A stretch of DNA of 63,391 bases, taken from NCBI GenBank assembly GCA_903827375.1, contig CAIKHZ010000252.1, positions 1 to 63,391 of the forward strand. The letters run 5' to 3'. Below, in pieces: positions 20,469-51,629 of the stretch. The position numbers and the translations under genes are program-made. This DNA comes from Akkermansiaceae bacterium (GTDB taxonomy: Bacteria; Verrucomicrobiota; Verrucomicrobiia; Verrucomicrobiales; Akkermansiaceae). Numbering within the stretch: position 1 is the first letter of the stretch; each line of letters starts with the position of its first letter. The notes beneath the pieces were generated by a model, which worked only from the letters and a program-made list of their open reading frames with translations, had not been told where the DNA came from and made no database searches.

Positions 20469-20474
20469 CGAATC

Positions 20475-24110: not shown

Positions 24111-25652
24111 TCAGATTGAGTTCAGGAATTCGACCAGAGCGCGGCGCATCTGATCATCTCGGATCACGAAGGGATGGGCCGGACCGATGGTGACGGGCTT
24201 ACGATAGATCGCGCTTGCGGGTACCAAGCGTGCCGGATTGAGCAGGTCGTCGAGGGTTGGCACCGATTGATCGTGCAGGTAGGGAGCTGTGGCGTAGAGG
24301 CTCATCAGGGTAGTGACGCGAATACCACCGGAGTCCTTCATTCGGTTGGTGGGGGGGCCATTGGAACCGAGGGCATCAAACGGGATCACTCGCTGGTTGG
24401 TGTAAAGGCCCAGACTGGGATCGTGACAAGTGTCGCAGCGGGCCTCAAAGAACACCTTGCGGCCAAATTCAGCTTGTACCGGGTCCACATTTGGATTCTT
24501 GATAGGCTTGAGGGTGGTCAGGTAGCAGCATAGCGACAAGGAGATTTTCAGGGTGGCCATATAGGGTGAGCCCTGCATCAGCCATGCGTTAGAGTGGCGC
24601 TGGTACTCTGGCATCGGAATTCCGGCGCTGGACCACAAGCGCATTCCGTGGATTCCACGCGCCAGCATGATGGCGGTGGGATTTTCCACACCATCGGGGA
24701 AGAACCGGAATGAGAGGTCGGCAGTGCCCGGGGGCCAGCGCTCAGCCTGCAAGCGCATGTCCTCGGGAAGATTGTCGGCGGTCGCGATGAGTTTGCCGAA
24801 TTGAAGCGTGCTGGACGGCAAGCCCGGGACAATCTTGCCGGTGGCCGGGTCGCGCCCGGTATGGCAGAAGGCACATGAGTAACCCACCCGGAATTGGCCA
24901 TCCATGCCATGCTGTAACCTAACCCCGACGATTGGTGTTTTCATGGAAAACCGATCTGCCTCGCCCTCATCGACTTCGTTGGCGCGCGGCAGGAAGCCGT
25001 ATTTTTTCCACCGCAGTGGATCTCCCGCGATCTTGGTGCGCGGAATATTGAGTTTAGAAGACGCCTGCTCATTGAGCTGGGTCCAGCCAAAGAAGATCGC
25101 GTGACCGAGTTTGATGTTCTCCTCCTGGCCGAGAACTTGGAACGCGATGCCTTTGGATGCGCGTGGATTGCGGGTGACCGTCCGGAAGCTACCATTGGGA
25201 GTTATCTCGGTACGCAGGTAGTCCCAGAGCACCACATTGACGTCGCCAGATGTGCAGTGAATCGGAACCGTGAAGCGGATTTTGCTGTCGCTCCACTCCA
25301 GCACTTCCACCATGGGTTGGGCCTCGGTGAGATTGATGCTTACGGCGTTTAGACCCTGCGCGGACCCGAAGCCGTGCCCGGTGACGCTCACCACCGTGCC
25401 TGGTGGGCCCTCGCGTGGGTTGACGTCCCCAATCACCGGATCCTTGTCACCAGAGGGCACCATCTCACTGGCATAGGCATCCAGAATCGCGTCGCCGATC
25501 TTGGTAACATCGGTGGGGAGCTGAATCGCAGGCATCTTTGCCGGTGCTTCGGGGTAAATCAGCTTCTTGATCAGATCGATGGGCCGGAAGCCCGAGTTGC
25601 CAAAGATCACCACCATCATCAGTGCCAGTTGTATAGCTCGATTGTTTTTCAT
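24111..25652 (-). CDS. di-haem cytochrome c with IPT/TIG domain
   Basis: Exported 513-residue protein. After an N-terminal signal or anchor comes an IPT/TIG immunoglobulin-like domain (about 72-160, PREGPPGTVVSVTGHGFGSA). Two haem-attachment sites follow, CAFCH and CDTCH, the second in a FGRKVFFEARCDTCHDPS context typical of the C-terminal half of di-haem cytochrome c peroxidase/MauG-like proteins. A periplasmic redox role is likely; a MauG-like oxidative tailoring or peroxidase role is a guess. Last gene of the polyketide locus, but it has its own motif copy (25714-25732), so it can be transcribed separately. Confidence 0.8.
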   Translation of the reverse strand: MKNNRAIQLALMMVVIFGNSGFRPIDLIKKLIYPEAPAKMPAIQLPTDVTKIGDAILDAYASEMVPSGDKDPVIGDVNPREGPPGTVVSVTGHGFGSAQGLNAVSINLTEAQPMVEVLEWSDSKIRFTVPIHCTSGDVNVVLWDYLRTEITPNGSFRTVTRNPRASKGIAFQVLGQEENIKLGHAIFFGWTQLNEQASSKLNIPRTKIAGDPLRWKKYGFLPRANEVDEGEADRFSMKTPIVGVRLQHGMDGQFRVGYSCAFCHTGRDPATGKIVPGLPSSTLQFGKLIATADNLPEDMRLQAERWPPGTADLSFRFFPDGVENPTAIMLARGIHGMRLWSSAGIPMPEYQRHSNAWLMQGSPYMATLKISLSLCCYLTTLKPIKNPNVDPVQAEFGRKVFFEARCDTCHDPSLGLYTNQRVIPFDALGSNGPPTNRMKDSGGIRVTTLMSLYATAPYLHDQSVPTLDDLLNPARLVPASAIYRKPVTIGPAHPFVIRDDQMRRALVEFLNSI

Positions 25653-25713
25653 AGTTTGATAGGATATCTGTTGAAGTCAATAGTATTAGTGTTAGAATGA
25701 AGACTAGTTATGC

Positions 25714-25732
25714 CAATTGGGTATTTCCCCAC
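25714..25732 (-). promoter_or_regulatory. dyad motif copy 9, degenerate (di-haem cytochrome gene)
   Basis: Minus strand GTGGGG AAAT ACCCAATTG, with TAACAC at 25689-25694 where the -10 is expected. Two bases differ from consensus, but position and direction fit. Confidence 0.6.
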
Positions 25733-25738
25733 CGGTGA

Positions 25739-26509
25739 TCAGGGCAGCAATGCCAGTGACTCCCGTCCGAGGCGCTTCACTTCCGGATCGTCATTCTCCG
25801 TGTTTGGCATCGACAAGCCCTTTAATAGATACTTGCGTGCGTTGGCCTGATCACCCATTTGGGCATAAGTTCGGCCAAGTTCGACATAGTGGCGGAGGCG
25901 GTGGGGATTGATGGCGATAGCCTTGTCGAAGCACTTGAGGGCTTCGGCGTTGGTGCCTATCGGTAATCCACCATAAAACATCTCTCCGAAGGCGCGTTTG
26001 ACGCTTCCGATATTCGCCAGCGACTGGTGCCATCGGCCTAACACATGCCAGGCCGAATCATTGCGCGGATTGAGGAGCAGCGCCTTGTCAACGGCTATCT
26101 TGATGAGCGGCGTGGCGTCCACTTGCGTTTGATTGCTCTGCAAAGGCAGCATTTTGCCATAGGTGATAGCCGGGGATAGCTGGGCATCCGAATCCTTAGG
26201 ACCGAGAGCCGCAGCCTTCAAGCCATAGTTTAAGGCGAGGGTGCCGAGCCTGAGTTTCTCTTTGGGTATTGGGGCCTTGGCCATTAGATGGCGGTATTGG
26301 CGAGCGATGCTTACCAGCAATTGGACATTTTTTGGTTCCAATTTTTCGGCCGGGAGATAGTTTTTGAGAGCTTCAGCTGCATTGAAGGTTCGATCACCCG
26401 CATCACCTTTTTCGATGAGTTCTGCCGCTGTCTGAGCAAATCCCGGCTGGCATGTTAGCCATATTGCGGTGATAGCTGCCCACGGTTGGATAGAGAATGA
26501 AATTCGCAT
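25739..26509 (-). CDS. exported TPR protein
   Basis: A 256-residue periplasmic protein: signal peptide ending QPGFAQ, then about three or four tetratricopeptide-like helical pairs (residues 30-240), with recognisable pieces such as DKALLLNPRNDSAWHVLGRW and CFDKAIAINPHRLRHYVELG. The arrangement resembles RMDN/regulator-of-microtubule-dynamics-type TPR proteins found in bacterial envelopes. It probably acts as a scaffold for partners encoded in the same operon; 6 bp separate it from the amidase gene. Confidence 0.78.
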   Translation of the reverse strand: MRISFSIQPWAAITAIWLTCQPGFAQTAAELIEKGDAGDRTFNAAEALKNYLPAEKLEPKNVQLLVSIARQYRHLMAKAPIPKEKLRLGTLALNYGLKAAALGPKDSDAQLSPAITYGKMLPLQSNQTQVDATPLIKIAVDKALLLNPRNDSAWHVLGRWHQSLANIGSVKRAFGEMFYGGLPIGTNAEALKCFDKAIAINPHRLRHYVELGRTYAQMGDQANARKYLLKGLSMPNTENDDPEVKRLGRESLALLP

Positions 26510-26515
26510 GGCTTG

Positions 26516-27889
26516 TCAGAGGGCTGATTTGGAATGTCCGGGGACCTTGTGATGAGGTCGGCGACCGGCAGGGAGGGGGATTTTGGTGTTGATCAGGCGA
26601 CCCGCATTCAGGAGTTGAGCTTCGCTGCGACGTGGGCCGACGAGTTGCAGGCTGGTGACGGGATGGACCCTGCCGTGTGTGGGCATTGGGATGGGGATGG
26701 CCAGCGCGGGATTGCCTGCGAAGTTCACCCCTACGGTATTTTGCGAGTTGAAGACCATCCACTCGAAGGCAACGGATGAACTCCAGAATGGCCTGGCGGG
26801 AGGTAGCGTCTGGAGCGTTGGCACGGCGATGAGATCCACCTTCTCGAATATGCGATTGAGGTCTCTCTGCCATGCCTTCTGTCGTTTCAGCGCGCCTTTG
26901 TAACCCATCGCGTAGTCCATTTCGCCCATGCTGATGACGATCTTTGTGGTGCTCCACACGCCATCTTCCTTGAGATATTTTTGATCGCTGAGCCACGCAT
27001 CGGCAAGCGCGATGGTCTTGCCATCCGCTTCGGCCTGCGCCCATTTGGTTTTGAATGCAGGATCAATTTGGATGATCTTGAAGCCGCTTGCGATGAGGGC
27101 CTCGTCGATCGCTTGATCGATGGCGGGGTTCGTGTTGTCGAGATAGAGACGTCCTATGCGGATGCGGTTGGCGATGGGCTTGTCGGCGACCGCCGCGTTG
27201 TAGAGTTTGGCGAAATCGCGCTGTAGCAAGCCCATGCCGATCACCAGGTTAGGTAGGTCCTTGGCCATGGGTCCTACCGTATCGAGATGTTTGGGTGAGA
27301 TCGGAAAAACCCCTTTGGTGGAGACCAGGCCGTATGTGGTTTTGAGGCCGTAAATTCCGCAGCAAGCCGCAGGCACACGGATAGAACCGCCGGTATCGGT
27401 GCCGAAAGCCACGTCGGCCATGCCGGTGGCGACGGCGACGGCGGATCCGCTTGATGAGCCGCCAGGGATCAGGCTGGCTTGGTCACGTTTGTGATTGACG
27501 GGTGTGCCGAAGTAGCTGTTCTTGCCGGAGACTGTCACTGCGAGTTCAGTTAGGTTTGTTTTCCCGACAATGCGCACATTTCCTTCTCGGGCCAACTCGA
27601 GACATTGAGCATCCCGCACGGCTGGCGGCCGGTTTTTTGCCAGGTATTCGGATCCGGCGGTGGTCACCACCCCCTGCATGTCGATGAGATCCTTCACGGC
27701 CAAGCGAAGCGAATGATTATCTTTGGGGGGCGGCCAGTAAACGATGAAAGCGTGTTTGCCACCGCGCTGTCCGGCAGCCGACCATGAGTCCGAGCAGGCA
27801 CCGAGCAAGCCAATGAGTAGGATTCCTGCAACAACCTGCAAGGCAAGCCCACAGCAGTACAGGGTTACGTCTTTAGGGGATGTGATCAT
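26516..27889 (-). CDS. amidase signature family enzyme, probable lipoprotein
   Basis: A 457-residue amidase with the complete Ser-cisSer-Lys triad: Lys in LAVKDLID (about 66), cis-Ser in PGGSSSGSAVA and nucleophile Ser in TDTGGSIRVPAA. The N-terminus has a hydrophobic segment ending LLGAC, a lipobox, placing the enzyme in the periplasm at a membrane. Amidase-signature enzymes hydrolyse (or transfer to) amide bonds. Within a PKS-condensation-AsnB locus, plausible roles are releasing or trimming an amide in the product, or activating a prodrug outside the cytoplasm; this is inference. Confidence 0.85.
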   Translation of the reverse strand: MITSPKDVTLYCCGLALQVVAGILLIGLLGACSDSWSAAGQRGGKHAFIVYWPPPKDNHSLRLAVKDLIDMQGVVTTAGSEYLAKNRPPAVRDAQCLELAREGNVRIVGKTNLTELAVTVSGKNSYFGTPVNHKRDQASLIPGGSSSGSAVAVATGMADVAFGTDTGGSIRVPAACCGIYGLKTTYGLVSTKGVFPISPKHLDTVGPMAKDLPNLVIGMGLLQRDFAKLYNAAVADKPIANRIRIGRLYLDNTNPAIDQAIDEALIASGFKIIQIDPAFKTKWAQAEADGKTIALADAWLSDQKYLKEDGVWSTTKIVISMGEMDYAMGYKGALKRQKAWQRDLNRIFEKVDLIAVPTLQTLPPARPFWSSSVAFEWMVFNSQNTVGVNFAGNPALAIPIPMPTHGRVHPVTSLQLVGPRRSEAQLLNAGRLINTKIPLPAGRRPHHKVPGHSKSAL

Positions 27890-27907
27890 GGATTGTGCGT
27901 TTCATGG

Positions 27908-28741
27908 TTACTCGGTTCGGCGCGGAACACCCGGGTCTTTGAGACCATCGGCGGTGAACGTTCCATTGGCATAACTCACGGCATGGTTGATGCGTGAGCC
28001 CCTGAGTTCGGTGGAGGCGTCGGCGCGAACCGCGCTTACTGTGAGATCGGCGGGGATCCTACGCTCCAGGTCATCAGCGGCGACACGCGTGGTGGTGATG
28101 CGGCGGGCTAGGGTGCCTGAAGGCAGGAATTTATCGATGCGCATGGGGACCATGCGGCGGAGATCCACCCAAGTGCGCACACTGCCGTAATTGGAGTGCT
28201 GGCTTTTGTCCGGTTTGGATTCGAGGATCTGACAACTGACGCGATCAATCACCTCGGTGCCTATGATGGTCTGGTTTTGCCATGCGAAGAAATTTTCCAG
28301 CACATCGGCGAACGTCAGATCGCTGCCGAACAATGCATCCTTCATCTGCGAAGCCGTGAGGGGGCGCAGCGTGTCAGGCGGAGTGAAATAGGCACCGCTT
28401 GCCGGCTGCCCGGCGGGTTGCCGTAGCAACACTCCTTCCCCGGCCCGTGCCTTGGGCCAGATGACCTGATAGATCATCTCGGTGGCCGTGGCTGTCCGGC
28501 GCTGTTTGATTTGGAGTTGTAGGGTCATTTTTGGGGAATCGGGCAACGGCTTCACCTCCAGCGTCAGACGCACATAGGATGAGCCATCTTGCTGCAACGA
28601 GCCGAGTTTGGTTGCAATGTCCTTGGCCGTCATCGTCGGCGGGGGAGGGGCAGCGGAAGCGGACCCTGCCAGCAGCGCGATGAATGTGAACCGGTGGATG
28701 AGTTGATATATCGATTTCATCATGGATGGATGGTGGTTCAC
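27908..28741 (-). CDS. LolA-like outer membrane lipoprotein-sorting protein
   Basis: A 277-residue exported protein with signal peptide (FTFIALLAGSASA; starts at 28741, 28723 or 28720 are all possible). The half-barrel pattern (YVRLTLEVKPLPD, MTLQLQIKQRRTATATEMIYQ, GVLLRQPAG, TWVDLRRMVPMRIDKFLPSG) fits the LolA/LolB-like COG2834 family of periplasmic lipid carriers. It sits directly downstream of a LolCE/MacB-type permease gene, so it probably receives a lipidic molecule from that transporter and ferries it to the outer membrane. Given the PKS upstream, the cargo may be the polyketide. Confidence 0.82.
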   Translation of the reverse strand: MNHHPSMMKSIYQLIHRFTFIALLAGSASAAPPPPTMTAKDIATKLGSLQQDGSSYVRLTLEVKPLPDSPKMTLQLQIKQRRTATATEMIYQVIWPKARAGEGVLLRQPAGQPASGAYFTPPDTLRPLTASQMKDALFGSDLTFADVLENFFAWQNQTIIGTEVIDRVSCQILESKPDKSQHSNYGSVRTWVDLRRMVPMRIDKFLPSGTLARRITTTRVAADDLERRIPADLTVSAVRADASTELRGSRINHAVSYANGTFTADGLKDPGVPRRTE

Positions 28742-28748
28742 GAGGGGC

Positions 28749-29864
28749 TCAGCCTTGCATGGCTAGGCTGGGGTTGAGGCGAGAACTACGCCAAGCCGGA
28801 TAGATGCCGCTGATGACGCCGACGATCACGGCGATGGTCACCGCCATGACCATCAAGCGCGGGCTCAGATCCGGCTCAAGCAGTCCGTGGATGGCGGGCA
28901 GGGTTTCCAGCACTTTGACGCCCGCGCAGCCGATTGTCACGCCTCCGATGCCGCCTAACAGACCTAGCAAGGCGGATTCCCAGAGGATCAAGCGGATGAC
29001 GCGTTGGCGCTTCCAGCCGATTGCCAGCAATATGCAGATTTCCTGTTTGCGTTCGAAGACGGTCATTAGCATAGTGTTCATGACGCCGAGCACGCCGACG
29101 ATCACTGCCAGCAGCGAGGTGCCCCAACTCATGGCGCGAATAAAGCGATAGGCCTCACTGTTGCCGACGTGCTCGCCGGCCGGCATGGCGCGGGCTTCTG
29201 GAATTTGATGGTTGATTCGGGCGCAGAGTTGTTTGAGCTCGTCAGAATTCAATCCGGGGACAGCCCGCACATCAATGATGTTGATCTTGTCCTCGTTACC
29301 GGATAGTTTTTGATAGAGTGGCAATGACAGGATCACCGAGCCGTTTTCCACCAATGCCCCTCCATCGACGATGCCCACGACAGTCAATTCGGTTGATTCT
29401 AATTGAATTGAATCGCCGGTCTTTTTTTTGAGTGCCTCGGCGGCGTTTTGGCCGAGGACCACGGCGGACTCCAAGGCATCATTTGGCATCCTTCCGGCGA
29501 CGAGTTTGAGGTTTTGCCATGAGAAGCCGCCCCACTCGCGGGCTGAAACAACCATCATGGAGGAATCCTCGATGCCCGTGAGATCGACGAAAATCGAACA
29601 GGTGGCGGCAACTTGTGGGATGACGGCAATGGCATCACGCACAGCGGCGCGGAACGGTTTTGGGGCAAGCGCGCTGCCCATGTTGCTGACCACGATGTCC
29701 GTGCCGCGCGCCTTCATGCCGCTTGCCCAGCTTTGCTCGAAGCCCCGCGAAATGCCGACGAGCGCGACCACCGCGGCGATGCCGATGGCGATGCCCACCA
29801 GCGTGAGACTCGTGCGCACCGGGCGCCGCTGCAGGCCGCGATAGATGATGGTAAAGAAGGTCAT
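28749..29864 (-). CDS. FtsX-like ABC permease (MacB/LolCE type)
   Basis: A 371-residue permease with the MacB/FtsX topology: one N-terminal helix (TSLTLVGIAIGIAAVVALVG), a large periplasmic domain (about 40-240) and three C-terminal helices, ending WRSSRLNPSLAMQG. Partner of the ATPase encoded 4 bp upstream. Such pairs extract lipoproteins or lipidic substrates from the outer leaflet of the inner membrane by a mechanotransmission mechanism. The following LolA-like gene completes a Lol-like relay. Confidence 0.88.
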   Translation of the reverse strand: MTFFTIIYRGLQRRPVRTSLTLVGIAIGIAAVVALVGISRGFEQSWASGMKARGTDIVVSNMGSALAPKPFRAAVRDAIAVIPQVAATCSIFVDLTGIEDSSMMVVSAREWGGFSWQNLKLVAGRMPNDALESAVVLGQNAAEALKKKTGDSIQLESTELTVVGIVDGGALVENGSVILSLPLYQKLSGNEDKINIIDVRAVPGLNSDELKQLCARINHQIPEARAMPAGEHVGNSEAYRFIRAMSWGTSLLAVIVGVLGVMNTMLMTVFERKQEICILLAIGWKRQRVIRLILWESALLGLLGGIGGVTIGCAGVKVLETLPAIHGLLEPDLSPRLMVMAVTIAVIVGVISGIYPAWRSSRLNPSLAMQG

Positions 29865-29868
29865 TGTG

Positions 29869-30615
29869 TTAGGGCGAGATTGGGGCGGACGGATCGGTGG
29901 CGATTTGACCGTCGATCATGCGAATCGTGCGTGATGCCAGCAGGGCGATGGACGGATCGTGAGTGACGAGCACCAGTGTCATCTGTCTCTCGCGCTTTAG
30001 GCGGATGATGAGATCGAGGATGTGATGAGCGTTTTTACTGTCGAGATTGCCCGTGGGTTCGTCGGCGAGAAGCACGGACGGGTTATTGGCCAGGCTGCGG
30101 GCGATGGCGACCCGCTGGCGTTCGCCGCCGGATAGCATGGCCGGAAAATGATTGAGGCGGTGCTCCAAGCCGACGGATTTCAGCAATTGGACGGCATGCT
30201 TGAGTCGCTCGCTTGCGGAGCGCTCGGTTTCGAACATTGGCAGTTGGACGTTTTCCACCGCGGTGAAGGTTGGCAGGAGATGAAAGGCCTGGAAGACCAT
30301 GCCGATCTCCCGTGCCCGATAGAGCGCCGGGTCGGGCAGGGCAGGGAGGGACGCGCCGCGATACAACAATGAGCCCGAAGTTGGGAGATCGAGCGCGCCG
30401 AGCAATTGGAGCAAAGTGGTCTTTCCGCAGCCGCTGGGACCCATGATCGCCAGGAACTCACCCTGGACGATCCGGAAGTTCACACCGCGCAATGCCCGGA
30501 CCCGGCCATCGTCGAAGTCCTTGCACAGGCCGTTGGCCTCGAATACATATCTCATGGATGGGGTCATCAAGTTGCTAGATGAGTCCTCCGTTGCTAGTTG
30601 AGTTAGCTGGGTCAT
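29869..30615 (-). CDS. LolD/MacB-type ABC ATPase
   Basis: A 248-residue ATPase: Walker [12 protein letters not shown]-loop [18 protein letters not shown], signature [15 protein letters not shown], Walker [15 protein letters not shown]-loop VTHD. The FHLLP and PTGNLD elements are typical of the LolD/MacB/FtsE group that pairs with FtsX-like permeases. Its start overlaps the condensation gene's stop by 4 bp, so it belongs to the biosynthetic operon. Confidence 0.92.
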
Positions 30616-31970
30616 TGCAGCGAGTTTAGGATGGTAAAAGTCACGGTATCCAGGCTGCGGCAGGCATCCGCCAGTACCGCTAGATAGATGCGTCCGAGGT
30701 GCTCGATGGTGTCGGGGGCAAACCGCCCTTGCCGGTAGAGCCAGGCCACCTCGAGCGCTTCACCGTTCTCGTTGATCTCGCAGGCGAGGTTGAAGCGGGT
30801 GGTGCCGGTTGAGCGCATTCGGAGCTTGAGTGAGAGCCCCGGCACCGCGACGTCGGGCACCGGGTGGTTTTGCAGGGCAAAGCGCACATCAAACACCGGA
30901 TTGCAGCCAAGAGCCGCGGTTGCGCCCACCGCGCGTGCCAGTTCGACAAAGGGCATCGCGTTGGCGAAGGCGTCCACCGTGGCCAGATGCACCTGTTGTA
31001 GGCTGCTAGAGAATTTACGTGCCGGATCGATCTGGCAGCGCAACGGCACGATGCCCGAGCAATAGCCCATGGTTTCGCGTATGGTCTTTTTTCCACGGTT
31101 CGCTACCGGCGTGCCGACGACGACGTCATCGGCGCCGCACCATTTTGACAAGGAGATTCGAAATGCTGTTAGAAGCGTGCTGAAGAGAGTGGCACTGTGG
31201 TGGCGGGCCAGTTCCCGCAGTGCTCGACCCAACTTTGCCGGAACAGATGAGACGACGCGCTGCAATGGAGCAAGAGGCGTTGACGGATTGGCGAGCGGGC
31301 TCAACAGCCGGGGGGAATTGGCCAGTTTGGATTGCCAGTATTCAGCACGCTGCACGAGGTTCGGGGGTTGCCAGAATGCCCGTTCGGCCGCTCCCCAATC
31401 CGAGTAAGTGAGCGGCACGGGCGGCAGGCCGGCAGCCACCCCGCGCACCATCTGGAGGTAGGCCGCCATCAGGTCCTGGACGAACACCCCCAACGTCCAA
31501 CCGTCGGCGATGGAATGATGGATCGAGATAGCCAGCAGATGGTCATCGGGGCCGCGCCGAAACATCTCTGCCCGATAGAGCGGGCCCTGTACCAAATCAA
31601 AGGGCGTTCCGAAGATCTCAGCGGCCAGCATTTCAATTTCCTCGGGGCGCCGTTGCCAGACCTGCAGCTCGCGGAAACCCAACGCTGGCTTGCCGGTGTG
31701 ACGGATTAGTTGCATCGGCTGCTCCTTGCCGGGAAGAAACGACAAGCGGAATACCTCCTGCCGGTCCACCACATGTTGCAGCGCCGCCATGCTGCCTTCC
31801 TGTGTGAGGCGGCCCCGAACTTCAATCACTGCACAAATATTGTTAGATGCATCCCCGGCTGGCACCGGTGAGGTTTCCCACAGCTCACGCTGCGGATAGG
31901 TCAAGGGTTGGAGGCGGATCTCGCCGCTCTCCAGCCATTGCTTCAGACGGGTTCGTTGGTCGTCGGGCAT
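30612..31970 (-). CDS. stand-alone condensation-domain protein
   Basis: A 452-residue protein made of one NRPS-type condensation domain. The catalytic motif HHSIADGW (about 151-158) is intact; LTYPQRELWE near the start and RGKKTIRETMGYC (the C5 region) are also recognisable. There is no adenylation or carrier domain. Starting 8 bp behind the PKS stop, it most probably takes the ACP-bound chain and transfers it to an amine or alcohol, thereby releasing it, which would explain why the PKS has no thioesterase. The acceptor is unknown; an amide acceptor would fit with AsnB and the amidase. Confidence 0.88.
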   Translation of the reverse strand: MPDDQRTRLKQWLESGEIRLQPLTYPQRELWETSPVPAGDASNNICAVIEVRGRLTQEGSMAALQHVVDRQEVFRLSFLPGKEQPMQLIRHTGKPALGFRELQVWQRRPEEIEMLAAEIFGTPFDLVQGPLYRAEMFRRGPDDHLLAISIHHSIADGWTLGVFVQDLMAAYLQMVRGVAAGLPPVPLTYSDWGAAERAFWQPPNLVQRAEYWQSKLANSPRLLSPLANPSTPLAPLQRVVSSVPAKLGRALRELARHHSATLFSTLLTAFRISLSKWCGADDVVVGTPVANRGKKTIRETMGYCSGIVPLRCQIDPARKFSSSLQQVHLATVDAFANAMPFVELARAVGATAALGCNPVFDVRFALQNHPVPDVAVPGLSLKLRMRSTGTTRFNLACEINENGEALEVAWLYRQGRFAPDTIEHLGRIYLAVLADACRSLDTVTFTILNSLQ

Positions 31971-31978
31971 GAGCGGCT

Positions 31979-34900: not shown

Positions 34901-37900
34901 CCACGCCTTGCGCGCCATCAGGCCGATGAGGCTCTCGCCGCCTTGGGGGCGGATCAATCCGGACAAGGAGGCGGTTTCACTGAAGCCCGCCTCGAGCAAC
35001 ACGCATTCCCATTGCCGACTTTGCAATAATGGATGCTTCGGCCGCGCCTCGCGATCCCTGAAGCGCCACCAACCGGCGGTCAAACCAAACACCGCGTTCA
35101 ACCACAAATGAGGCGTGGCCACATCCACAAACATCAGGGTGCCGCCAGACACTAACAGCTCATAAAGATGGCGCAGGGTATCGCGTACATCACTCACCGC
35201 ATGGACGACATTGGTGCCTAGGATGAGGTCGAAAGATCCCGCCTCCAACCCTTGGTCAACACCCGGCTTCTCGAGATCAAACATCTGATATTCAACCTCT
35301 GGAAATGCCGCCAGCTTTTGGCGTGCCGCAGGAAAAAATGCCGCTGATATGTCACTGAACACATAACTGTGCCGCCCAGGCTCAAGGAGCGGCAACACCT
35401 GTGATGCCAGTCCGCCGGTGCCCGCCCCGATCTCAAGAATGCGCAGGCCCCGCCCCTCGGGTAGCGCCCGGGCGGCCTCTTCCACAGCCCGACCGATGGC
35501 CGCAAGCCACGGACTGGTGACCAGACCGTCGCCGTAGAACTGATCTAACATGTCCGTTCCACCACTGCTGAACAGGACCTGCACCGCCTCTTTTTCGCCG
35601 CGCATGATCGGCCCGAGTTCGGCACATGTGGCACCGCAGATGAGTGCTTCGGGCAAATGCCCGGGATACTTGCCGATGCTCGCGCTCAGCAACCCGGCCG
35701 AGCTGGCCACCGCTTGCTCAAAGGCGGTGCCCGTCCGATAGCCGTTGTCGGCCTTTTCCAGCATCCGTATTTCCACCAGATTGTCCGCCAACTGAGCGAA
35801 CGATGCTCGCATGGCTCCTGCTACCCCGAGCGAGTCTGCCGTGAAGTATCCCTCCGCGCCCATCTCACGCAAGCCGAACGCCACTTGGGCGGCGGTGAGT
35901 TCGTCTCCTGCCGCACTGGCGGCTTCCAGCGTCGCCCGTCCGCGAAAGTCGAGCACTTCATCTAATGCCTTTCTTGCCACTTCACATAGCCGACCTAACG
36001 GCACAGGTGCTTGTGTGGACGGGGCAGTCAGAGCTTCGGATTTCTCCCATCCGACGTGATAGATCAGGTCCCGGCCTTTGCCAGTTTTGCCGGAGCGGCG
36101 AGCCCCTTCCACGCTTATGGCGCGGAAGCCATTGATGAGTACGCATGGTCGGCCCGCCTCATCATATAACTCGATATCGCCATCGACCAGTTCATCATTC
36201 GCTTGGGTCACTCCAGCCCGAACAAAACTCGCGGTGCCCGGCGAACGCAAGAACAGGATTCTAGCGAAGCGCACCGGCAGGCGCAGGCCGGCGCTGCGGC
36301 CTTCCACCGTCGCGGCACCTGCGGAGAATATTTGCAGTGCGCCATCAAACAGCACGGGGTGCAGCGAGTATTCGCTCGCTCGCGGAGCGATGGCTGCGGA
36401 TAGCGAAACCCGCCCTTCCGACCTGCCGGCCCCTGTTGCCAACTCGCGAATTGGTCGGAACTCCTCGCCATAGCGCAGGCCCAGATCGCTCATGTGGCTG
36501 TAAAAGCCATGCAATCCAACGGTTGTGAGATCGGTGTTAGGGGTTTTTTCCCATCCGCTTGATGCGAATGAGGATTCCGTGCGCTCGCCTCGGAGTGATC
36601 CAACCACATGCACCGTCCATGATGCAGAGTTCTCGAATCGGCTTTGGATGGTAAACGTGCGGGAGTCAGGATCATAGGTGGTTTCTAGCAATAGTCCGGA
36701 CGCTGGCTCCGGCAGAATGAGTGGCTTGCGGATTTCAAAGTCTTCAACAACGAACGGTTTGCCATCGAAGAGTTGCATGCCAGCCTCTAACACCATTTCT
36801 ACAAATCCGGCCGCCGGGAAGATGATGAGGTTTTCCACTCGGTGATCCTTCAGGAATGCCATGTGCCGGCCATCAAGCCGGGTGAGCCACGTCGGCATGG
36901 CCCGAGACAATCTGACGTCTAGCAATCCTTGGCCACCCGGTGCCAGTCGTCCCTCACGCATGTCGGCGGACTCATTCCACCAGCGGCTTTTGTCCCATGC
37001 ATAGGTCGGAAGATCGAGCAGTCTTCGCGACGGAGTGAGTGCAGAGAAGTCTATCACTACGCCTGCCAGGTGGAGATCCAATGCCGTTTCTAGCAACGAT
37101 TCGTGTTCGCGCTCGCGGCGTGCCGAGGCCAGAATGACGGGCTTTTGGCCTTCTCCTGCCAGGCATTCCTGGAGCGAACGCGCCAAGGCGGGGTGAGCGC
37201 CAATCTCTAGCCACACGTCCGCCCCGAACCCGGCCACCGCACCGATTGCCGATTCAAACGCCACAGGTTGCCGCACGCCGCGCGCCCGATGATCCGCATT
37301 GCAGGCGATGCCAGCGAGTTGCCCACCGGTGACGGTGCTGAAAAACGGAAGAGTTGCAGGTTGCGGCGTTAGATCGGTCAGCGCGCCTTGCAGCGCATCC
37401 GCTGCGGGATACATCATGGGATGATGAAACGGGTGACTCACCAGCACGAAGCGGGCAAACACTCCTTGGCTTTCCAACTCCGCTGCGATGAGCTCAAGCG
37501 ACGTTCTCAGGCCAGCCAGAGTGAGTGAGCGCGGGCCGTTGAAAGCCGCAATGCATACTTGCGGGTCGTGGCGCTCTATCACAGCCTGAGCATCCTCCGG
37601 GAGCATGCCAACTGCCAACATGGTGCCGCCAGCCACCGAGCATTGTTCCATGAAGCGGCCTCGAAACACGATAATTTTGGCAGCTTGGTCCAAGGTCAGA
37701 ATTCCCGCGACGCAGGCGGCGGCCACTTCGCCCACACTATGGCCCACAACCGCGGCGGGCTGAACGCCCCACGATTTCCACAGCGCCGCCAGTGCCATCT
37801 GCATTGCGAAAATCGCCACCTGGGAAACCTCCGTGCGTTGCATTTGTGAATCCGCTTCCGAGCGTGCGAGTTCTTCTATCAGTGAGAACTTCGCCCATGG

Positions 37901-39700
37901 TTGGATGGCCTTGTCACAGGATTCGATCATCCGCCGGAACACGGCTTCGTGGCGCATGAGTTCGCGCCCCATCCCCCACCACTGTGCACCTTGGCCATTC
38001 ATGACAAACACAACCCGTGCTGCCGCCTCGCGCCGAGGCGTGAACGCCGTGCGAAACTTCATGCCCGGATTTTCCAGCGAAAATGCTCCGAGCTCCTGCA
38101 CCGCTTCGGCAAGGGATCGCGCTGTGAATGCCAGCCGGTGCGAGTGATGGTTGCGCCGAGAGCCTAACATGTATGTGAGATCTGCCAACGTCGGCGACCC
38201 GCCATTGAGCTTGGAGTGATCGTCCACCCACGCCGCCAAGCGCCAGGCTGCCGCCAGCAATGCTTCCTCGGAGCGCGCGGAGAGCACCAGTGGCCATGCG
38301 CGATCCACATCCATGAGCACTCTTGAGACCTGCACCAGCGCTGGCGCTTCCGTTAGTACGACATGTGCGTTTGCTCCTCCGAACCCGAACGAATTCACGC
38401 CCGCAGTGCGCATGCCATGGCTGATAGGAAACGCTTCGGTGGTTACGGCCACCCGCAGCTTCAGGGCGGTGAAATCGATGTTCGGATTGGGTGTGTTAAA
38501 ATTCAGACTGGGGGGAATTCGGCCGTGTTTGAGCATCAGGGCCACCTTTACCAAGGCTGCCACACCGGATGCGGTTTCCAAGTGACCGAGATTGGTTTTC
38601 ACGGATCCGATGACTAGCGGGGCATTTGCCGGGCGTGTGGCGCAGAGCGCCTCGCCGAGGGCATGGGCTTCGATCGGGTCCCCCACCGCCGTGCCTGTGC
38701 CGTGAGCCTCGACATAACTCACCCGTGATGGATCAATGCCGGCGTTGGCACACGCCTCACGAACCATCCGTGCCTGTGCGGCAGGGCTTGGCAGCGAGAT
38801 TCCGTTGGTATGCCCGTCCTGATTGAGCGCTGAACCGATGATCACTGCGTGGACCGGATCCCCGTCGGCGAGCGCATCTGATAGACGCTTCAACAATACA
38901 ATTCCGGCTCCTTCGCCACGCACAAAACCATTGGCGGCAGCGTCAAACGCCTTGCATTTGCCCTCTGGCGATAGCATCCCAGCTTGCGAGAACCCGATGA
39001 ATCCGTCCGGCGTGATCATCACCGTCACTCCACCCGCCAACGCCGATTTGCAGCGGCCTGCCAGAATATGCTCGCAGGCCACATGCACTGCCGTCAATGC
39101 CGACGAGCAGGCCGTGTCCAGCGCGAGGCTCGGCCCGCTCAGATTCAGGCAATAGGAAATCCGGTTAGCCGCGATGCTGTGGGCGCTGCCGGTCGGTGTG
39201 TGGGCGCTGATGCCGACGCGGTCGGTCGGTGTGTGTTGCAGCCCTTGGTAGTCATTGTGTGAGACTCCGACGAACACTCCGATATCCGTGCCGTGCTCGA
39301 AATCCAAGACCATCCCCGCATCCTCAATCGCCTCCCACGCCGTTTCCAGCAACAACCGCTGCTGCGGATCGATGTAGGGTGCCTCCCGTGGCGAGATCCC
39401 GAAAAATTGGGGGTCAAACTGGTCTATTGAGTCGAGGAACCCGCCGCGTTTGGCAACAGTTTTGCCAACCAGTCCTGGTTCCGAATCGAAAAAGCGCGCC
39501 GCGTTCCACCGGTCCGGCGGCACATCCGACACCGCCTCGCGACCCTCTGCTAACAACTTCCAGAATGAAGCAGCGTCGTTCACTCCGCCCGGAAAGCGGC
39601 AGCCGATTCCAATGATGGCGATGCCGTCCTTGACATTTTTATGATGGATTGGATCGGGCACCGGTGCCGGCATAGAGACGGAATTTTGGAAGAGGGACAT
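31979..39700 (-). CDS. single-module highly reducing type I polyketide synthase
   Basis: A 2573-residue PKS with domain order KS-AT-DH-MT-ER-KR-ACP. KS (about 25-450): DTACSSA with the active Cys, EAHGTGT, NLGHLE. AT (560-860): GHSVGEV and SHPFHHP. DH (920-1200): His in DHRVENLIIFP (Asn where Gly is usual) and HPVLFDGALQ. C-methyltransferase (1400-1560): LEIGAGTGG. ER (1800-2110): AGMNFRD, AGAGGVGMAAIQ. KR (2150-2400): TGAFGGFG and the YASAN Tyr. ACP (2440-2520): GLDSLMA. No thioesterase. A full reducing set plus methyltransferase predicts a saturated, methyl-branched acyl chain, built iteratively as only one module exists. Headed by motif copy 10 (predicted leader near 78 nt) and followed within 8 bp by the condensation gene. 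Confidence 0.95.
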   Translation of the reverse strand: MSLFQNSVSMPAPVPDPIHHKNVKDGIAIIGIGCRFPGGVNDAASFWKLLAEGREAVSDVPPDRWNAARFFDSEPGLVGKTVAKRGGFLDSIDQFDPQFFGISPREAPYIDPQQRLLLETAWEAIEDAGMVLDFEHGTDIGVFVGVSHNDYQGLQHTPTDRVGISAHTPTGSAHSIAANRISYCLNLSGPSLALDTACSSALTAVHVACEHILAGRCKSALAGGVTVMITPDGFIGFSQAGMLSPEGKCKAFDAAANGFVRGEGAGIVLLKRLSDALADGDPVHAVIIGSALNQDGHTNGISLPSPAAQARMVREACANAGIDPSRVSYVEAHGTGTAVGDPIEAHALGEALCATRPANAPLVIGSVKTNLGHLETASGVAALVKVALMLKHGRIPPSLNFNTPNPNIDFTALKLRVAVTTEAFPISHGMRTAGVNSFGFGGANAHVVLTEAPALVQVSRVLMDVDRAWPLVLSARSEEALLAAAWRLAAWVDDHSKLNGGSPTLADLTYMLGSRRNHHSHRLAFTARSLAEAVQELGAFSLENPGMKFRTAFTPRREAAARVVFVMNGQGAQWWGMGRELMRHEAVFRRMIESCDKAIQPWAKFSLIEELARSEADSQMQRTEVSQVAIFAMQMALAALWKSWGVQPAAVVGHSVGEVAAACVAGILTLDQAAKIIVFRGRFMEQCSVAGGTMLAVGMLPEDAQAVIERHDPQVCIAAFNGPRSLTLAGLRTSLELIAAELESQGVFARFVLVSHPFHHPMMYPAADALQGALTDLTPQPATLPFFSTVTGGQLAGIACNADHRARGVRQPVAFESAIGAVAGFGADVWLEIGAHPALARSLQECLAGEGQKPVILASARREREHESLLETALDLHLAGVVIDFSALTPSRRLLDLPTYAWDKSRWWNESADMREGRLAPGGQGLLDVRLSRAMPTWLTRLDGRHMAFLKDHRVENLIIFPAAGFVEMVLEAGMQLFDGKPFVVEDFEIRKPLILPEPASGLLLETTYDPDSRTFTIQSRFENSASWTVHVVGSLRGERTESSFASSGWEKTPNTDLTTVGLHGFYSHMSDLGLRYGEEFRPIRELATGAGRSEGRVSLSAAIAPRASEYSLHPVLFDGALQIFSAGAATVEGRSAGLRLPVRFARILFLRSPGTASFVRAGVTQANDELVDGDIELYDEAGRPCVLINGFRAISVEGARRSGKTGKGRDLIYHVGWEKSEALTAPSTQAPVPLGRLCEVARKALDEVLDFRGRATLEAASAAGDELTAAQVAFGLREMGAEGYFTADSLGVAGAMRASFAQLADNLVEIRMLEKADNGYRTGTAFEQAVASSAGLLSASIGKYPGHLPEALICGATCAELGPIMRGEKEAVQVLFSSGGTDMLDQFYGDGLVTSPWLAAIGRAVEEAARALPEGRGLRILEIGAGTGGLASQVLPLLEPGRHSYVFSDISAAFFPAARQKLAAFPEVEYQMFDLEKPGVDQGLEAGSFDLILGTNVVHAVSDVRDTLRHLYELLVSGGTLMFVDVATPHLWLNAVFGLTAGWWRFRDREARPKHPLLQSRQWECVLLEAGFSETASLSGLIRPQGGESLIGLMARKAWIKPQSVAEAVEDELAEKSWLVLADESGLGNELAEHLRACGVRCRVARRGAAFTAELPDAFTLRAEVPADWINLLESCAQDPPVRFVCLWSLDESKPGSSANTLMSGTDPLFHLTQALGVMSPVAKLRIDWVTRGAQPVSPKSEVALAQAPAIGLLRVVANEYNNFTCRAIDLSPVATAADAARLWHELLDRTPEREVAFRGEGRFVRRIHRGLQPRDQLLDSTVPLRLESRERGLLDALRLVPFALPTCAAGEVAIEVKAAGMNFRDVLKALALYPAETADARIFGDEVAGVVIAVGSGVTHVVPGDRVFGLAVFGLATVSMARAGDVRVIPDSLSFEAAATLPVVFMTSWHALKTVAQLKPGERILIHAGAGGVGMAAIQIAHHLGAEVIASAGTPSKRALLRILGVTHIIDSRRGDFADDVMQLTAGKGVDVVLNALSAEAIPMGLSCLAPFGRFIEIGKRDIYQNSRIPLWPMRRNASFHVVAMDAIFRGNEDQTRDLLETIAGLVTQGVLHPLPFRAFPACRMDAAFRLMAQGKHTGKVVVAFPEPFVARRGEPLTPAFEVNADACYLITGAFGGFGKVLAEWLVTCGAKHLMLASRSGATTPAAIEFLNLLRARGVDVLVACADVGSPADVHRLLDEITASGHPLKGVFHLAMVIDDAPISALTRDRMLKVIEPKAYGAWLLHEGTRGMDLDCFVMFSSVSSVFGNSAQANYASANAFLDALAHQRHACGLPALVINWGALGGEGYVARNERVAEYLARQGTTPLTPSEVIVLLEGFLNAGTIQALALRVDWSKWRQSFRGSQESPLLEHIFAAGVDGVESTGTKSDWRVKIEASTADDRLDIIGQALRDVVGSVLRVKPDGLRADQPLTDLGLDSLMAVEIENSIESAMGVALPPASLMRARTINQIAALIAEHLGGASPAKTSILAPEPVSVDQVDLAALSEEQIERLLGTSAVELADQPALAILV

Positions 39701-39810
39701 AAAGTATATGCGAATGTTTGGGAGAGATATTTACTGGCAAACCCCAATATTCATGTTTTAGTTAGCACATTTGAGGTTGCGAAGATGTTATGCTCGAGGC
39801 AAACCGCCTG

Positions 39811-39829
39811 CTATGGGGTGAAACCCTAC
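39811..39829 (-). promoter_or_regulatory. dyad motif copy 10 (PKS operon)
   Basis: Minus strand GTAGGG TTTC ACCCCATAG, the closest match to consensus, with TAACAT at 39785-39790 as -10. It faces the PKS; whether asnB on the other side is also controlled from this dyad is unclear. Confidence 0.88.
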
Positions 39830-39924
39830 TCTGTGGGGATTTTGGTTTCCTTCCCTGCGGGCTTCGGGTAAGGATTGGAGATCGCGGGTGCCTGTCAGGC
39901 ATTCTTAACCATGAAATATATCTT

Positions 39925-41907
39925 ATGTGTGGAATTGCGGGAGTGATGGACTTGGCCGGGAAGCGGGCGGTGCCGGAGGTTGTCGTTAGGCGGATGACCC
40001 GTGCACTCGTGCATCGTGGGCCGGACGAGGAAGGGTTCTTGTTTCGTCCCGGCATTGCGCTGGGATCCCGCAGGCTCAGCATTGTCGGTTTGGCTGATGG
40101 ACAGCAACCGGTTTGCAATGAGGATCAAAGCGCCTTCGTTGTCTTCAATGGCGAGTTGTTTGATTATATTGAGCAACGCGAAGAACTGATGGCACGTGGC
40201 CATCACCTGCGCACTCACTGTGATACGGAAATCATTCCGCACCTGTGGGAGGAACGCTCGGAGGGCATGTTCGACCGGTTGCGGGGCCAATACGCCATCG
40301 CGTTGTATGACGTACGCCGCCATCAGTTGACGCTAGGGCGTGACCGCTTTGGGATCTGCCCGCTTTACTGGACGCGGCAAGGCGACTGGCTGCTATTTGC
40401 CTCAGAGATCAAGGGGCTTCTTGCCTCGGGCATGGTGCCCGCCAAGGCCGATCTTGGAGGCTTGGATCAGGTATTCACTTTTGCCGCGATGCCGGGTCCT
40501 CGCACGTGTTTTGATGGAGTGAAGATGCTGCTTCCAGCCCACTATTTGCAGATCACGCCGACCACGGAAGGCGGCATGGCGCCGGTGATAGCTGAGCGCT
40601 GTTACTGGCGGATGGACTTTCCGGATCAGGGGGATGAGGTCACCTGCGGCGACCCGCGCCTGCTGGCGGATGAACTCGAGGATCTGCTTCTCAAAGCAGT
40701 GGCTAGGCGGTTGCGCGCCGATGTGCCGGTGGGTGCCTATCTATCAGGTGGTCTCGATTCCAGCATGATCGTGGCTATGGCCTGCCGCCTCAAGGGTCCG
40801 GCAATCAACACATATACCATCCGCGTCGATGATCCTGCGCTCGATGAACTGAGCGCGGCAAATCTGTCAGCCCGCCACATCGGCACCAAACCACCCGTGG
40901 TGCTAGACTTTAGGGCAGCCGATGCGCTAGCCATGTATCCCCAACTGATTCAGGCCGCTGAGGCACCCGTCATCGATACCTCATGTGCGGCGCTGCTCAT
41001 GCTGGCCCGGCGGGTGCATGCCTGCGGTCAAAAGGTCGTGCTCACCGGCGAGGGTGCCGACGAATGGCTCGCCGGCTATCCATGGTATAAGGTCGCCAAG
41101 CTCTTTGACATGCTCGACCTCATCCCCGGCCTGCGACTCAGCAACCTGGTTCGCCGCACCTATCTCCGAATCAATCAAGTTCCGCAATACCCAGCCGGGT
41201 TTCGCGATGCTTTGGAAAAGTCCGTCGGGGGTCCCAATGCATGGATTGATTCCTACGGCGTCCTGGCGCTATCGAAATTGCGGTTTTACGCGGCACCGAT
41301 GCGGGAGGTGCTTGAGCGCTCGAAGCCGTGGGATGATTTGGGGCTTGATCCAGAGCGTGCCAGGCACTGGGATCCCCTCAACCGCGGGCTTTGGGTTGGC
41401 GCGCGTGTTACGCTGGCCGGCCACCTGTTGCAAGCCAAGGGAGATCGCGTCGCCATGCACTCATCGGTGGAGGCTCGCTATCCGTTTCTCGATGAAGCCG
41501 TCTTCGACTTCACCGCCAAGTTGCATCCATCATGGAAACTCCACGGCTTCCGTGACAAATATCTGCTTCGTCTAGTCGCCGAGCGTTGGCTGCCACCTGT
41601 TGTCGCCCGCCGCCAAAAAGTCATCTTCCGGGCTCCGCTCGATAGTTTCCACCTCGACCCCGAACCGTCATTTGTCGCCGATTTGCTCAGTGCCGAATCA
41701 CTGCGTAGAACCGGGTACTTTGATATTGCCGCCGTGCATCACTGGCGCCAGGCCTATCGAAAGATGCGGCCTGGATCGCTGGCTCGCCTTTCCATCGAAA
41801 TGGGATTGGTCGCCGTTGTAGCCACTCAGTTATGGCATCACACGTTTCTCGGCGAATCATTGGCGGATCTGCCGCAGTGGGACTCTCATTCTTTTCTTCC
41901 CCTCTGA
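39925..41907 (+). CDS. asnB: asparagine synthase (glutamine-hydrolysing) family amidotransferase
   Basis: A 660-residue class II glutamine amidotransferase. The start at 39925 exposes the catalytic Cys2 (MCGIAGV), fixing the N-terminus. The glutaminase domain runs to about 210 (RRLSIVGL, VVFNGELFDY, THCDTEII); the synthetase domain has the PP-loop LSGGLDSSM near 275 and TGEGADEWLAGY. It makes an amide from a carboxylate via an acyl-AMP. Divergent from the PKS across a 224-bp region holding motif copy 10. AsnB homologues in secondary-metabolite loci often amidate the product or form a ring; here that is more likely than housekeeping asparagine synthesis, but not proven. Confidence 0.9.
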   Translation: MCGIAGVMDLAGKRAVPEVVVRRMTRALVHRGPDEEGFLFRPGIALGSRRLSIVGLADGQQPVCNEDQSAFVVFNGELFDYIEQREELMARGHHLRTHCDTEIIPHLWEERSEGMFDRLRGQYAIALYDVRRHQLTLGRDRFGICPLYWTRQGDWLLFASEIKGLLASGMVPAKADLGGLDQVFTFAAMPGPRTCFDGVKMLLPAHYLQITPTTEGGMAPVIAERCYWRMDFPDQGDEVTCGDPRLLADELEDLLLKAVARRLRADVPVGAYLSGGLDSSMIVAMACRLKGPAINTYTIRVDDPALDELSAANLSARHIGTKPPVVLDFRAADALAMYPQLIQAAEAPVIDTSCAALLMLARRVHACGQKVVLTGEGADEWLAGYPWYKVAKLFDMLDLIPGLRLSNLVRRTYLRINQVPQYPAGFRDALEKSVGGPNAWIDSYGVLALSKLRFYAAPMREVLERSKPWDDLGLDPERARHWDPLNRGLWVGARVTLAGHLLQAKGDRVAMHSSVEARYPFLDEAVFDFTAKLHPSWKLHGFRDKYLLRLVAERWLPPVVARRQKVIFRAPLDSFHLDPEPSFVADLLSAESLRRTGYFDIAAVHHWRQAYRKMRPGSLARLSIEMGLVAVVATQLWHHTFLGESLADLPQWDSHSFLPL

Positions 41908-47719: not shown

Positions 47720-47781
47720 TCAGTTATGCATCGTCATAGTTCTTTTGCACTCCTAAACCTAAGGCCAGGAGCGCCGTCCTG

Positions 47782-47800
47782 CCATGGGGTATATCCCTAC
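47782..47800 (-). promoter_or_regulatory. dyad motif copy 11 (efflux operon)
   Basis: Minus strand GTAGGG ATAT ACCCCATGG, with TTAGGT at 47757-47762 at the -10 position. The next 50 bp share CCTTAGGTT and CAAAAGAACTATGA with the region after copy 3. Confidence 0.88.
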
Positions 47801-47810
47801 TTGGGACAAA

Positions 47811-50178: not shown

Positions 50179-50180
50179 GG

Positions 50181-51368: not shown

Positions 51369-51629
51369 GATGACTTACGAGCGGGCCGGCGTTGCTGAAC
51401 TCTTGCCCGGGTAAATTTCCAACGTTGAAGGACTCGTTTCAAACACACAACCTCATTCCTTCGCCACCAGGAAGCATGTTAGAACCAGTTGTCAAAAAAT
51501 AATCCTTGTGCTGCCGGGAGATTTCACCACTAGATGGCCGCGTTACATCCCAAATCCGCTGGGTCATTGACGGTCAGCGTGCCGAAGACCGCGCAGAAAT
51601 CATCGCAACAACCCCCGCAACCCGCTACT

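Follow-up and report, generated by a model that had tools for sequence, protein, structure and literature searches.

The 63,391-nucleotide contig CAIKHZ010000252.1 of an Akkermansiaceae bacterium (assembly GCA_903827375.1), here called the window, carries at positions 24,111 to 41,907 a compact set of genes for a type I polyketide synthase (PKS), a stand-alone condensation protein, and a transporter with a carrier of the LolA fold. The core of this set is conserved within one verrucomicrobial order as a system for biosynthesis plus export. It is best explained as a dedicated line that makes and exports a methyl-branched polyketide lipid and is tied to a local stress-type regulon, an explanation that we hold to be fairly probable. 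The product, its acceptor, the cargo of the carrier, and an outer-membrane destination are predicted from the kinds of proteins encoded. An initial annotation of the window had read the locus along similar lines. Its single unit, branched and reduced chain, LolA-fold carrier, and shared motif have held, whereas saturation of the chain, synteny across phyla, conservation of the cytochrome, and a general structural lipid have not.

The named genes were recovered by a Pfam profile search of the window proteins where the annotation had placed them, with one start moved. From 39700 leftwards the minus-strand genes, mostly overlapping or less than 20 bases apart, encode the PKS (31979..39700; 2573 residues); the condensation protein (30612..31970; PF00668, E 8e-64); a LolD-like ATP-binding cassette (ABC) ATPase (29869..30615; ABC_tran); a permease of the MacB/FtsX type (28749..29864; MacB_PCD PF12704 and FtsX PF02687), a one-gene product that would act as a homodimer; the LolA-fold carrier (27908..28741; LolA_like PF17131, E 4e-20, and predicted structure), which has a signal-peptide-like N terminus; an amidase-signature lipoprotein with the lipobox LGAC (26516..27889; PF01425, E 2e-60); a tetratricopeptide repeat (TPR) protein (25739..26509; Pfam), which also has a signal-peptide-like N terminus and whose gene adjoins that of the amidase in relatives; and, as an accessory part, a RoxA-like di-haem c-type cytochrome with a TIG domain and two CxxCH motifs (24111..25652; Pfam). 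Divergent from this operon, on the plus strand, lies a gene for an AsnB-type glutamine amidotransferase (39925..41907; Asn_synthase and GATase in Pfam). The annotation had started it at 39790, which puts 45 extra residues ahead of MCGIAG; since MCG is present in 20/20 AsnB sequences read, window included, and Cys2 is the nucleophile of the family, the start was moved to 39925, and the AsnB-PKS intergenic region thus becomes 39701-39924. By motif patterns, MCGIAG and SGG[LV]DSS are each kept in 19/19 sequences. The source genome (6.1 Mb, 370 contigs) has one PKS of this kind.

That these genes form one functional unit, as had been proposed, is borne out by co-occurrence in 99 genomes, the source genome included, and by synteny in 36 contexts. 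The genomes were searched with seven proteins; a genome was PKS-positive if it had a match of more than 2000 bits, the condensation protein was counted at orthologue level (more than 450 bits), and the amidase and LolA were counted at E <= 1e-60 and E <= 1e-20, respectively. Lower-scoring condensation domains, present in 12 further genomes at E <= 1e-40, were left uncounted. The PKS is found in 21/99 genomes. The condensation protein occurs in 20 of these 21 and in 0/78 others (nominal Fisher 5e-20), the LolA-fold carrier in 21/21 against 3/78 (G024, G079, and G080; 1e-18), and a membrane desaturase, discussed below, in 18/21 against 0/78 (5e-17). The annotation had expected the LolA, amidase, and cytochrome genes to be conserved with the PKS elsewhere. 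This is true of LolA and, in 14/21 genomes against 1/78 (4e-11), of the amidase, but the cytochrome is found in only 5/21, against 0/78 (3e-4). The lone amidase holder among the 78, G026, has pieces of the PKS and amidase, together with AsnB and the TPR protein, on a 4.8-kb contig. The TPR family is more widely spread (40/99 genomes).

The 36 contexts were built around the condensation gene, which is therefore in all of them by construction; the window is included, and many contexts stop at contig ends. Loci L038, L040, L042, L043, and L053 were left out as duplicate records of contigs in G034, G028, G092, G095, and G054. The PKS is found in 34 contexts, the desaturase in 30, FtsX in 29, LolA in 27, AsnB in 20, TPR in 16, and the amidase in 11; LolD counts include paralogues and are not used. 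The usual order in relatives is amidase-TPR, a divergent AsnB, and then PKS-condensation-desaturase-LolD-FtsX-LolA. Four families repeat the stretch from the condensation gene to FtsX, and in three of them LolA follows it; in G077 and G098 LolA lies ahead of LolD. The window differs in that the amidase and TPR genes stand behind LolA and the desaturase is out of the operon. Some relatives have extra genes, for an alpha/beta hydrolase with a lipoprotein-like start, a patatin, a PaaK/F390-type adenylate-forming enzyme, and a methyltransferase-like protein (by reading) that has no Pfam or NCBIfam match. On a Spartobacteria contig (L041, 12382-12682), LolD matches fall on both strands, and neither FtsX nor LolA was found, pointing to a rearrangement or an assembly fault.

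A chance neighbourhood of separate stress and metabolism genes is scarcely credible. The cytochrome is adjacent in few genomes, the amidase and TPR genes change place, and in G006 and G057 the transporter genes are on other contigs than the PKS. However, locus genes co-occur with the PKS even when they are unlinked, and the repeated gene order already contradicts such a chance for the core.

The system has been met in one verrucomicrobial order, and the conserved synteny across phyla that the annotation had looked for is not seen, in searches that reach little beyond the phylum. An evenly drawn sample of the phylum, with at most 4 candidates scored per genome, yielded 5/387 positive genomes, the source genome included, all in that order. 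The 20 relatives reached through the condensation protein, by a contig scan that finds close relatives only, are all Verrucomicrobiota, labelled Akkermansiaceae, Prosthecobacter, Verrucomicrobiaceae, Verrucomicrobiales, Chthoniobacteraceae, Spartobacteria, or Verrucomicrobia(ota). The best identity among plasmid records was 34%, to condensation domains of nonribosomal peptide synthetases (NRPS). Full-text searches of one literature collection, judged on titles and abstract openings, found no publication describing this locus; the type I PKS cluster, not further specified, that the accessible part of PMC11427321 reports for Luteolibacter soli may or may not be the same.

Other PKS genes were seen along the way. 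G092 has two copies of the PKS and condensation genes (contigs C262 and C140), the PKSs being 75% and 71% identical to that of the window; one copy is followed by the desaturase and LolD set, the other by different genes up to the contig end. A second kind of PKS (37-41% identity, more than 1400 bits, open reading frames of 2945-4127 residues) is present in G061, G069, G073, G078, G084, G087, G089, G092, G093, G095, and G096, and in L029, L032, L033, and L036 the frame continues into a condensation domain, as in fungal PKS-NRPS hybrids.

The chemistry of the chain can be read from the PKS, in which Pfam recognises ketoacyl-synt, AT, PS-DH, Methyltransf_12, ADH_zinc_N, KR, and PP-binding domains, that is, the order ketosynthase (KS), acyltransferase (AT), dehydratase (DH), methyltransferase (MT), enoylreductase (ER), ketoreductase (KR), and acyl carrier protein (ACP). 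The catalytic motifs of these domains are kept in 28/28 full-length PKSs, window included, upholding the methyl-branched, reduced chain that had been predicted. The MT domain lies at residues 1422-1522, and its S-adenosylmethionine (SAM) motif is kept in the 28 sequences with substitutions at flanking positions. In acyltransferases, the motif HAFH marks the malonyl type and is contrasted with YASH. The window motif, HPFH, is nearer HAFH than YASH, and thus the methyl branches should come from SAM via the MT domain. Behind the ACP, the PKSs end in acidic tails of the LSDEDIDRLL type, found in 27/28 by a stricter and 28/28 by a looser pattern, both written after the tails had been seen; they resemble docking tails of the short linear motif (SLiM) type, as far as these are described in the accessible text of PMC9113145. 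The best PDB match, and so the nearest solved relative, of the PKS is mycocerosic acid synthase (MAS), and LovB and PsoA are also among the PDB matches of the PKS and condensation protein.

Release of this chain by the condensation protein, which the annotation had put in place of a thioesterase, is plausible as a reaction in trans. HHxxxDG is kept in 33/34 condensation proteins of at least 420 residues, including the window (HHSIADG), with L047 having QHAIADG, and the nearest solved relatives are NRPS condensation domains. The window protein has about 20 residues ahead of its core (by eye), and no N-terminal beta-hairpin docking domain was recognised there. Pfam finds in the locus neither an adenylation domain nor a second carrier domain that could provide a bound amino acid, and a free amine or alcohol is therefore the probable acceptor. 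The nearest solved relative of AsnB is an AsnB-type "hydroxyamidotransferase". The amidase has a lipobox-like Cys behind a hydrophobic N terminus in 11/11 sequences (by eye) and, by motif patterns, keeps GGSSSGSA and the serine motif GTDTxGS, each in 11/11; its PDB relatives include GatA, biuret hydrolase, FAAH-type amidases, and the colibactin amidase ClbL.

The saturated chain of the annotation is doubtful, since a membrane fatty-acid desaturase/hydroxylase belongs to the system. In relatives it is encoded between the condensation and LolD genes; its second His box, HxxHH, is kept in 29/29 sequences, and the L047 protein has FA_desaturase support in Pfam, while a sequence search of the PDB gave no match. 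The source genome has its desaturase on another contig, G000:C187 (about 1899-2846), 68% identical to that of L047 and with three His boxes readable. Loss of the gene in the window lineage is thereby ruled out: in the tree, the C187 protein falls inside the operon family beside G034, and the window PKS also stands beside G034. A mirror-tree comparison of desaturase and PKS in 24 contexts gave a moderate r of 0.51 (window row 0.71), with G009/G029 grouping differently in the two trees. We take the C187 desaturase to be a displaced member of the PKS system.

The cytochrome may be connected with this displacement. Its carriers among the PKS-positive genomes (G000, G028, G006, G054, and G057) are exactly those without a desaturase beside the condensation gene, so that it occurs in 5/5 genomes without the desaturase in place and in 0/16 with it (p 5e-5, uncorrected for ancestry, the cytochrome lineages being about 2 by tree). 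This exclusion should be taken as a lead and not as a result; the G028 assembly is split into 950 contigs and may have missed the desaturase, and in G006 the desaturase is present and no condensation gene was found. The cytochrome gene lies behind TPR in G000 and G028 (the G028 copy is cut by the contig end) and, in G006 and G057, is convergent behind LolA and the methyltransferase-like gene; in 19.5 kb of G054 sequence, none of the other locus genes was seen. That it is a random neighbour was rejected because 5/5 carriers are PKS-positive and 4/5 adjoin the transporter or TPR end, a weak rejection with only about 2 lineages. Against the NCBIfam RoxB and RoxC equivalogs the protein scores 20 and 18 bits, below the cut-off of 900.

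Export is the other half of the system. The annotated LolA-like carrier is supported by its predicted structure (predicted local distance difference test, pLDDT, 85), which has a periplasmic LolA fold: it matches Porphyromonas gingivalis LolA3 (9tp6; Z 26.9, 233 residues aligned, 2.8 Å) and a DUF1329 protein (4z48; Z 27.4, 232 aligned, 2.6 Å), and LolA and LolB at Z 9-14. LppX (2byo) was matched by Foldseek (E 4e-5, TMq 0.30) and is not among the VIA matches listed. In the available portion of their report, the authors of the LolA3 structure consider it to have a function apart from the LolA-LolB pair (PMC13103446). Of the annotated LolD-FtsX transporter, both genes are there, but the proteins are LolD/LolE-like only: the ATPase scores 231.1 bits against a LolD cut-off of 307.75 and the permease 53 against 362.45 for LolC/E. 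Housekeeping LolCDE was rejected on these curated cut-offs, and also because the locus LolA is not found in 75/99 genomes at E <= 1e-20 and hence is not housekeeping. The permease is 57-99% identical to 13 orthologues, with a mean column identity of 79% over 14 sequences. Its Foldseek matches are MacB (ranked first), LolCE, and HrtB; the model has a pLDDT of 64 and its periplasmic part is too poor to choose between MacB and LolCE.

Alternatively, the locus might make a secreted specialised metabolite, a signal or lipoamide antibiotic, with the FtsX/MacB-type transporter as its exporter or a self-protection pump and the LolA-like protein and amidase maturing or deactivating it by a prodrug logic. 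The MacB_PCD and FtsX domains and the MacB top match would suit this, as would ClbL among the relatives of the amidase, the patchy distribution of the locus, and AcrB-type resistance-nodulation-division (RND) pumps (by eye) near the locus in three relatives. So would the TolC-HlyD-ATPase-MacB-like operon that directly adjoins the PKS locus (43058-51317, minus strand), which has a motif copy of its own and, ahead of it, an MlaE/ATPase/MlaD/ABC_trans_aux set for MCE-type lipid transport; a MacB relative with 84% identity is near the locus in L047, too. In MacB proper, however, ATPase and permease are fused into one protein that works with an HlyD-type partner. The locus has separate genes for the two, its operon has no HlyD partner, and a MacB efflux pump proper was rejected on these grounds; the constant partner is instead the LolA-fold carrier (21/21). 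In addition, the membrane desaturase, together with the lipoprotein-like alpha/beta hydrolase and patatin that neighbour the locus in some relatives, points to a lipid and favours one resident in the membrane. Secretion thus seems rather unlikely.

The cargo could also be a protein. LolD, FtsX, and LolA might move a lipoprotein of the locus, such as the amidase, to the outer membrane, with the PKS product used elsewhere; it might, for example, provide that lipoprotein or phospholipids with an unusual acyl group. Carriers of the LolA family classically move lipoproteins, and the amidase has its lipobox-like N terminus. Yet seven of the PKS-positive genomes keep the carrier without the amidase at E <= 1e-60, and we judge lipoprotein traffic to be quite improbable.

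The remaining part of the proposal, that lipid synthesis is tied to a stress-type regulon, comes from the DNA upstream of the PKS. The sequence GTAGGGTTTCACCCCAT lies 113 bp before the PKS start (39813..39829, minus strand; pattern search) and is probably the "stress motif" to which the annotation alluded. Reading the DNA ahead of the PKS in several genomes gave the pattern TAGGGTTNNACCCCA; an alignment of the entire AsnB-PKS intergenic region had been spoiled by a 2-kb insert in G086. With at most one mismatch, the window has 7 copies of the pattern where 0.03 would be expected; exact copies number 4 in the genome, 3 of them in the window (one being the PKS site itself), against 1 for a reversed control. 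After the window matches had been seen, the pattern was widened to GTAGGGN5CCCCAT, which matches the genome exactly at 16 sites. Half of these, 8, fall in the window, which is 1% of the genome; the binomial value of 2e-12 is too low, since window matches guided the widening. The 8 sites are at 11963, 13058, 14900, 15012, 23063, 23273, 39813, and 47784. Allowing one mismatch gives 41 sites in the genome against 17 for the reversed control, and two mismatches give 14 in the window against 4.75 expected. PKS-upstream DNA has 7 sites in 16.8 kb; the other 845 kb have 13, of which the window accounts for 10.

As targets of the widened motif, only the longest open reading frame starting within 400 bp downstream was considered. 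Starts in the same orientation, 57-205 bp behind a site, belong to an AI-2E-type transporter, an outer-membrane barrel, the TolC-MacAB operon, a weak DUF883 match, the PKS, the desaturase, and, by eye, PRC-barrel-like, YihY-like, PLD-like, and histidine-kinase-like genes; the PRC-barrel-like, PLD-like, and desaturase genes have one-mismatch sites, and several exact sites are without a convincing gene. The desaturase site is at C187:1748-1764, 57-135 bp upstream depending on the start chosen. It also lies between the desaturase and a divergent gene (690-1457, minus strand) for an exported-looking protein with BON-like repeats (by eye). A two-mismatch copy 64 bp before the cytochrome start (25716..25732, minus strand) may be due to chance, at 4.75 sites expected per window. 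The link to stress would follow only from the types of genes that bear the motif. Between the copies at 11963 and 13058 lies a gene for a NarL/LuxR-type response regulator (12268..12945, plus strand; PF00072 and PF00196), which as a guess is a candidate regulator.

Put together, the preferred lipid line would work as follows. The PKS, whose domains and active sites are intact, would act repeatedly on malonyl units, methylating with SAM and reducing. The condensation protein would then free the chain from the ACP onto the amine or alcohol, AsnB might turn a carboxyl of the chain or acceptor into an amide, and the desaturase/hydroxylase, a presumed di-iron membrane enzyme that is associated with the system, would modify the chain. 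The ABC ATPase and permease would lift the lipid from the inner membrane onto the LolA-fold carrier, which would cross the periplasm with it, and the lipoprotein amidase and TPR protein may trim or assemble it at the envelope.

Several points weigh against this proposal. The stress motif is common to the PKS and to stress-type genes, but it was found upstream of the PKS in only 5/28 contexts (the window, G086, G092a, L047, and L055). No LolB-like receptor was recognised in the locus by Pfam, with no fold search made of the TPR protein or amidase, and the LolA-type carrier may move a lipoprotein, the amidase itself, rather than a lipid. Among contexts with an upstream flank, AsnB is not beside the PKS in G054, G057, G059, G085, G092b, L041, L048, and L056, the rest of those genomes not having been searched for it. 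G057 and G054 are without a desaturase, and G057 has its transporter set on another contig than the PKS and condensation genes. The Fisher values are too small, as the genomes share ancestry and their independence is overstated. Finally, presence in 21/99 and 5/387 genomes suggests a specialised compound, and such patchiness speaks against the general structural envelope lipid that had been annotated.

If the proposal is true, polyketide-type lipids served by a Lol-like relay of their own gain one more example, Verrucomicrobiota gain a new envelope lipid, and an ABC/FtsX pump, in the first such case known to us, takes the step served by an RND protein in aryl polyene clusters. Whether carriers of the LolA family transport lipids could be put to a clean genetic test in this system, which also illustrates how a dispersed gene can be traced to its pathway through co-occurrence and a shared motif.

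Other genes near the locus were noted. RND pumps of the AcrB type (by eye, 1020-1133 residues) are found in the locus contexts of G057, G059, and G074; in G057 the gene comes after the PKS and condensation genes, with one gene between. The window also encodes an ABC transporter (ABC_membrane and ABC_tran) adjoining a DUF1854 protein (18177-20942, plus strand) and a 1285-residue protein with PATR autotransporter-type repeats (51534-55391, plus strand).

Known systems share parts of this design. Like the Lol pathway (LolCDE-LolA), the locus has a LolD-like ATPase, an FtsX-type permease, and a LolA fold, but it departs from that pathway in its sub-cut-off scores and in the restricted distribution of its LolA; from MacAB efflux it departs in its separate ATPase and permease genes and the lack of HlyD in the operon. 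Fungal reducing PKSs and PKS-NRPSs, such as LovB and PsoA, have a like domain set and order, MT included, with a condensation domain downstream, which here is a separate protein.

In the synthesis of mycobacterial phthiocerol dimycocerosate (PDIM), the chain is released by PapA5, of the condensation superfamily, and MAS has the order KS-AT-DH-ER-KR-ACP, without an MT domain. PDIM and the present system are alike in a methyl-branched chain made by a type I synthase, in its release, as proposed here, by a member of the condensation superfamily, in ABC proteins, and in a carrier of LolA-like fold. They differ in the MT domain of the PKS here, in the lack of MmpL in the locus, in the envelope, and in the condensation protein, which is NRPS-like rather than PapA5-like (NF006787, 23 bits against a cut-off of 396). 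It is conceivable, though we advance it only tentatively, that the locus makes a Gram-negative equivalent of the methyl-branched outer lipids known from mycobacteria. One type I PKS would make a polyketide lipid amide that is methylated from SAM and induced by stress, a condensation protein would release it in trans, and an ABC/FtsX-LolA relay serving lipid and not lipoproteins would send it to the outer membrane; its oxidation would fall to the membrane desaturase/hydroxylase or, in lineages whose operon no longer includes that gene, to the periplasmic di-haem cytochrome. For PDIM itself, the accessible part of PMC11539658 names MAS, the ABC proteins DrrABC, and the carrier lipoprotein LppX.

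Aryl polyene clusters with ApeL, ApeM, and ApeN, so far as the accessible text of PMC8253772 describes them, combine a polyketide-type acyl chain with a LolA-like chaperone, an RND transporter, and a LolB-like protein. The resemblance lies in an acyl chain made together with its own LolA-like carrier (PF17131 and fold) and an inner-membrane transporter, which in the aryl polyene case serve to place the chain in the outer membrane. Discrete KS, KR, DH, and ACP proteins there contrast with one 2573-residue type I PKS and a trans-acting condensation protein here, and the RND exporter with ABC/FtsX, no RND protein being among the locus genes of the window; nor was a counterpart of the LolB-like protein recognised by Pfam in the locus. 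Flexirubin loci with LolA2 and LolB2 (PMC11885536) are alike in tying a LolA paralogue to a lipid-pigment locus and differ in having LolB2, and the accessible portion of that report makes no mention of a type I reducing PKS. In its logic, then, the system is most like the aryl polyene and flexirubin clusters and in its chemistry like PDIM, and it is a member of neither.

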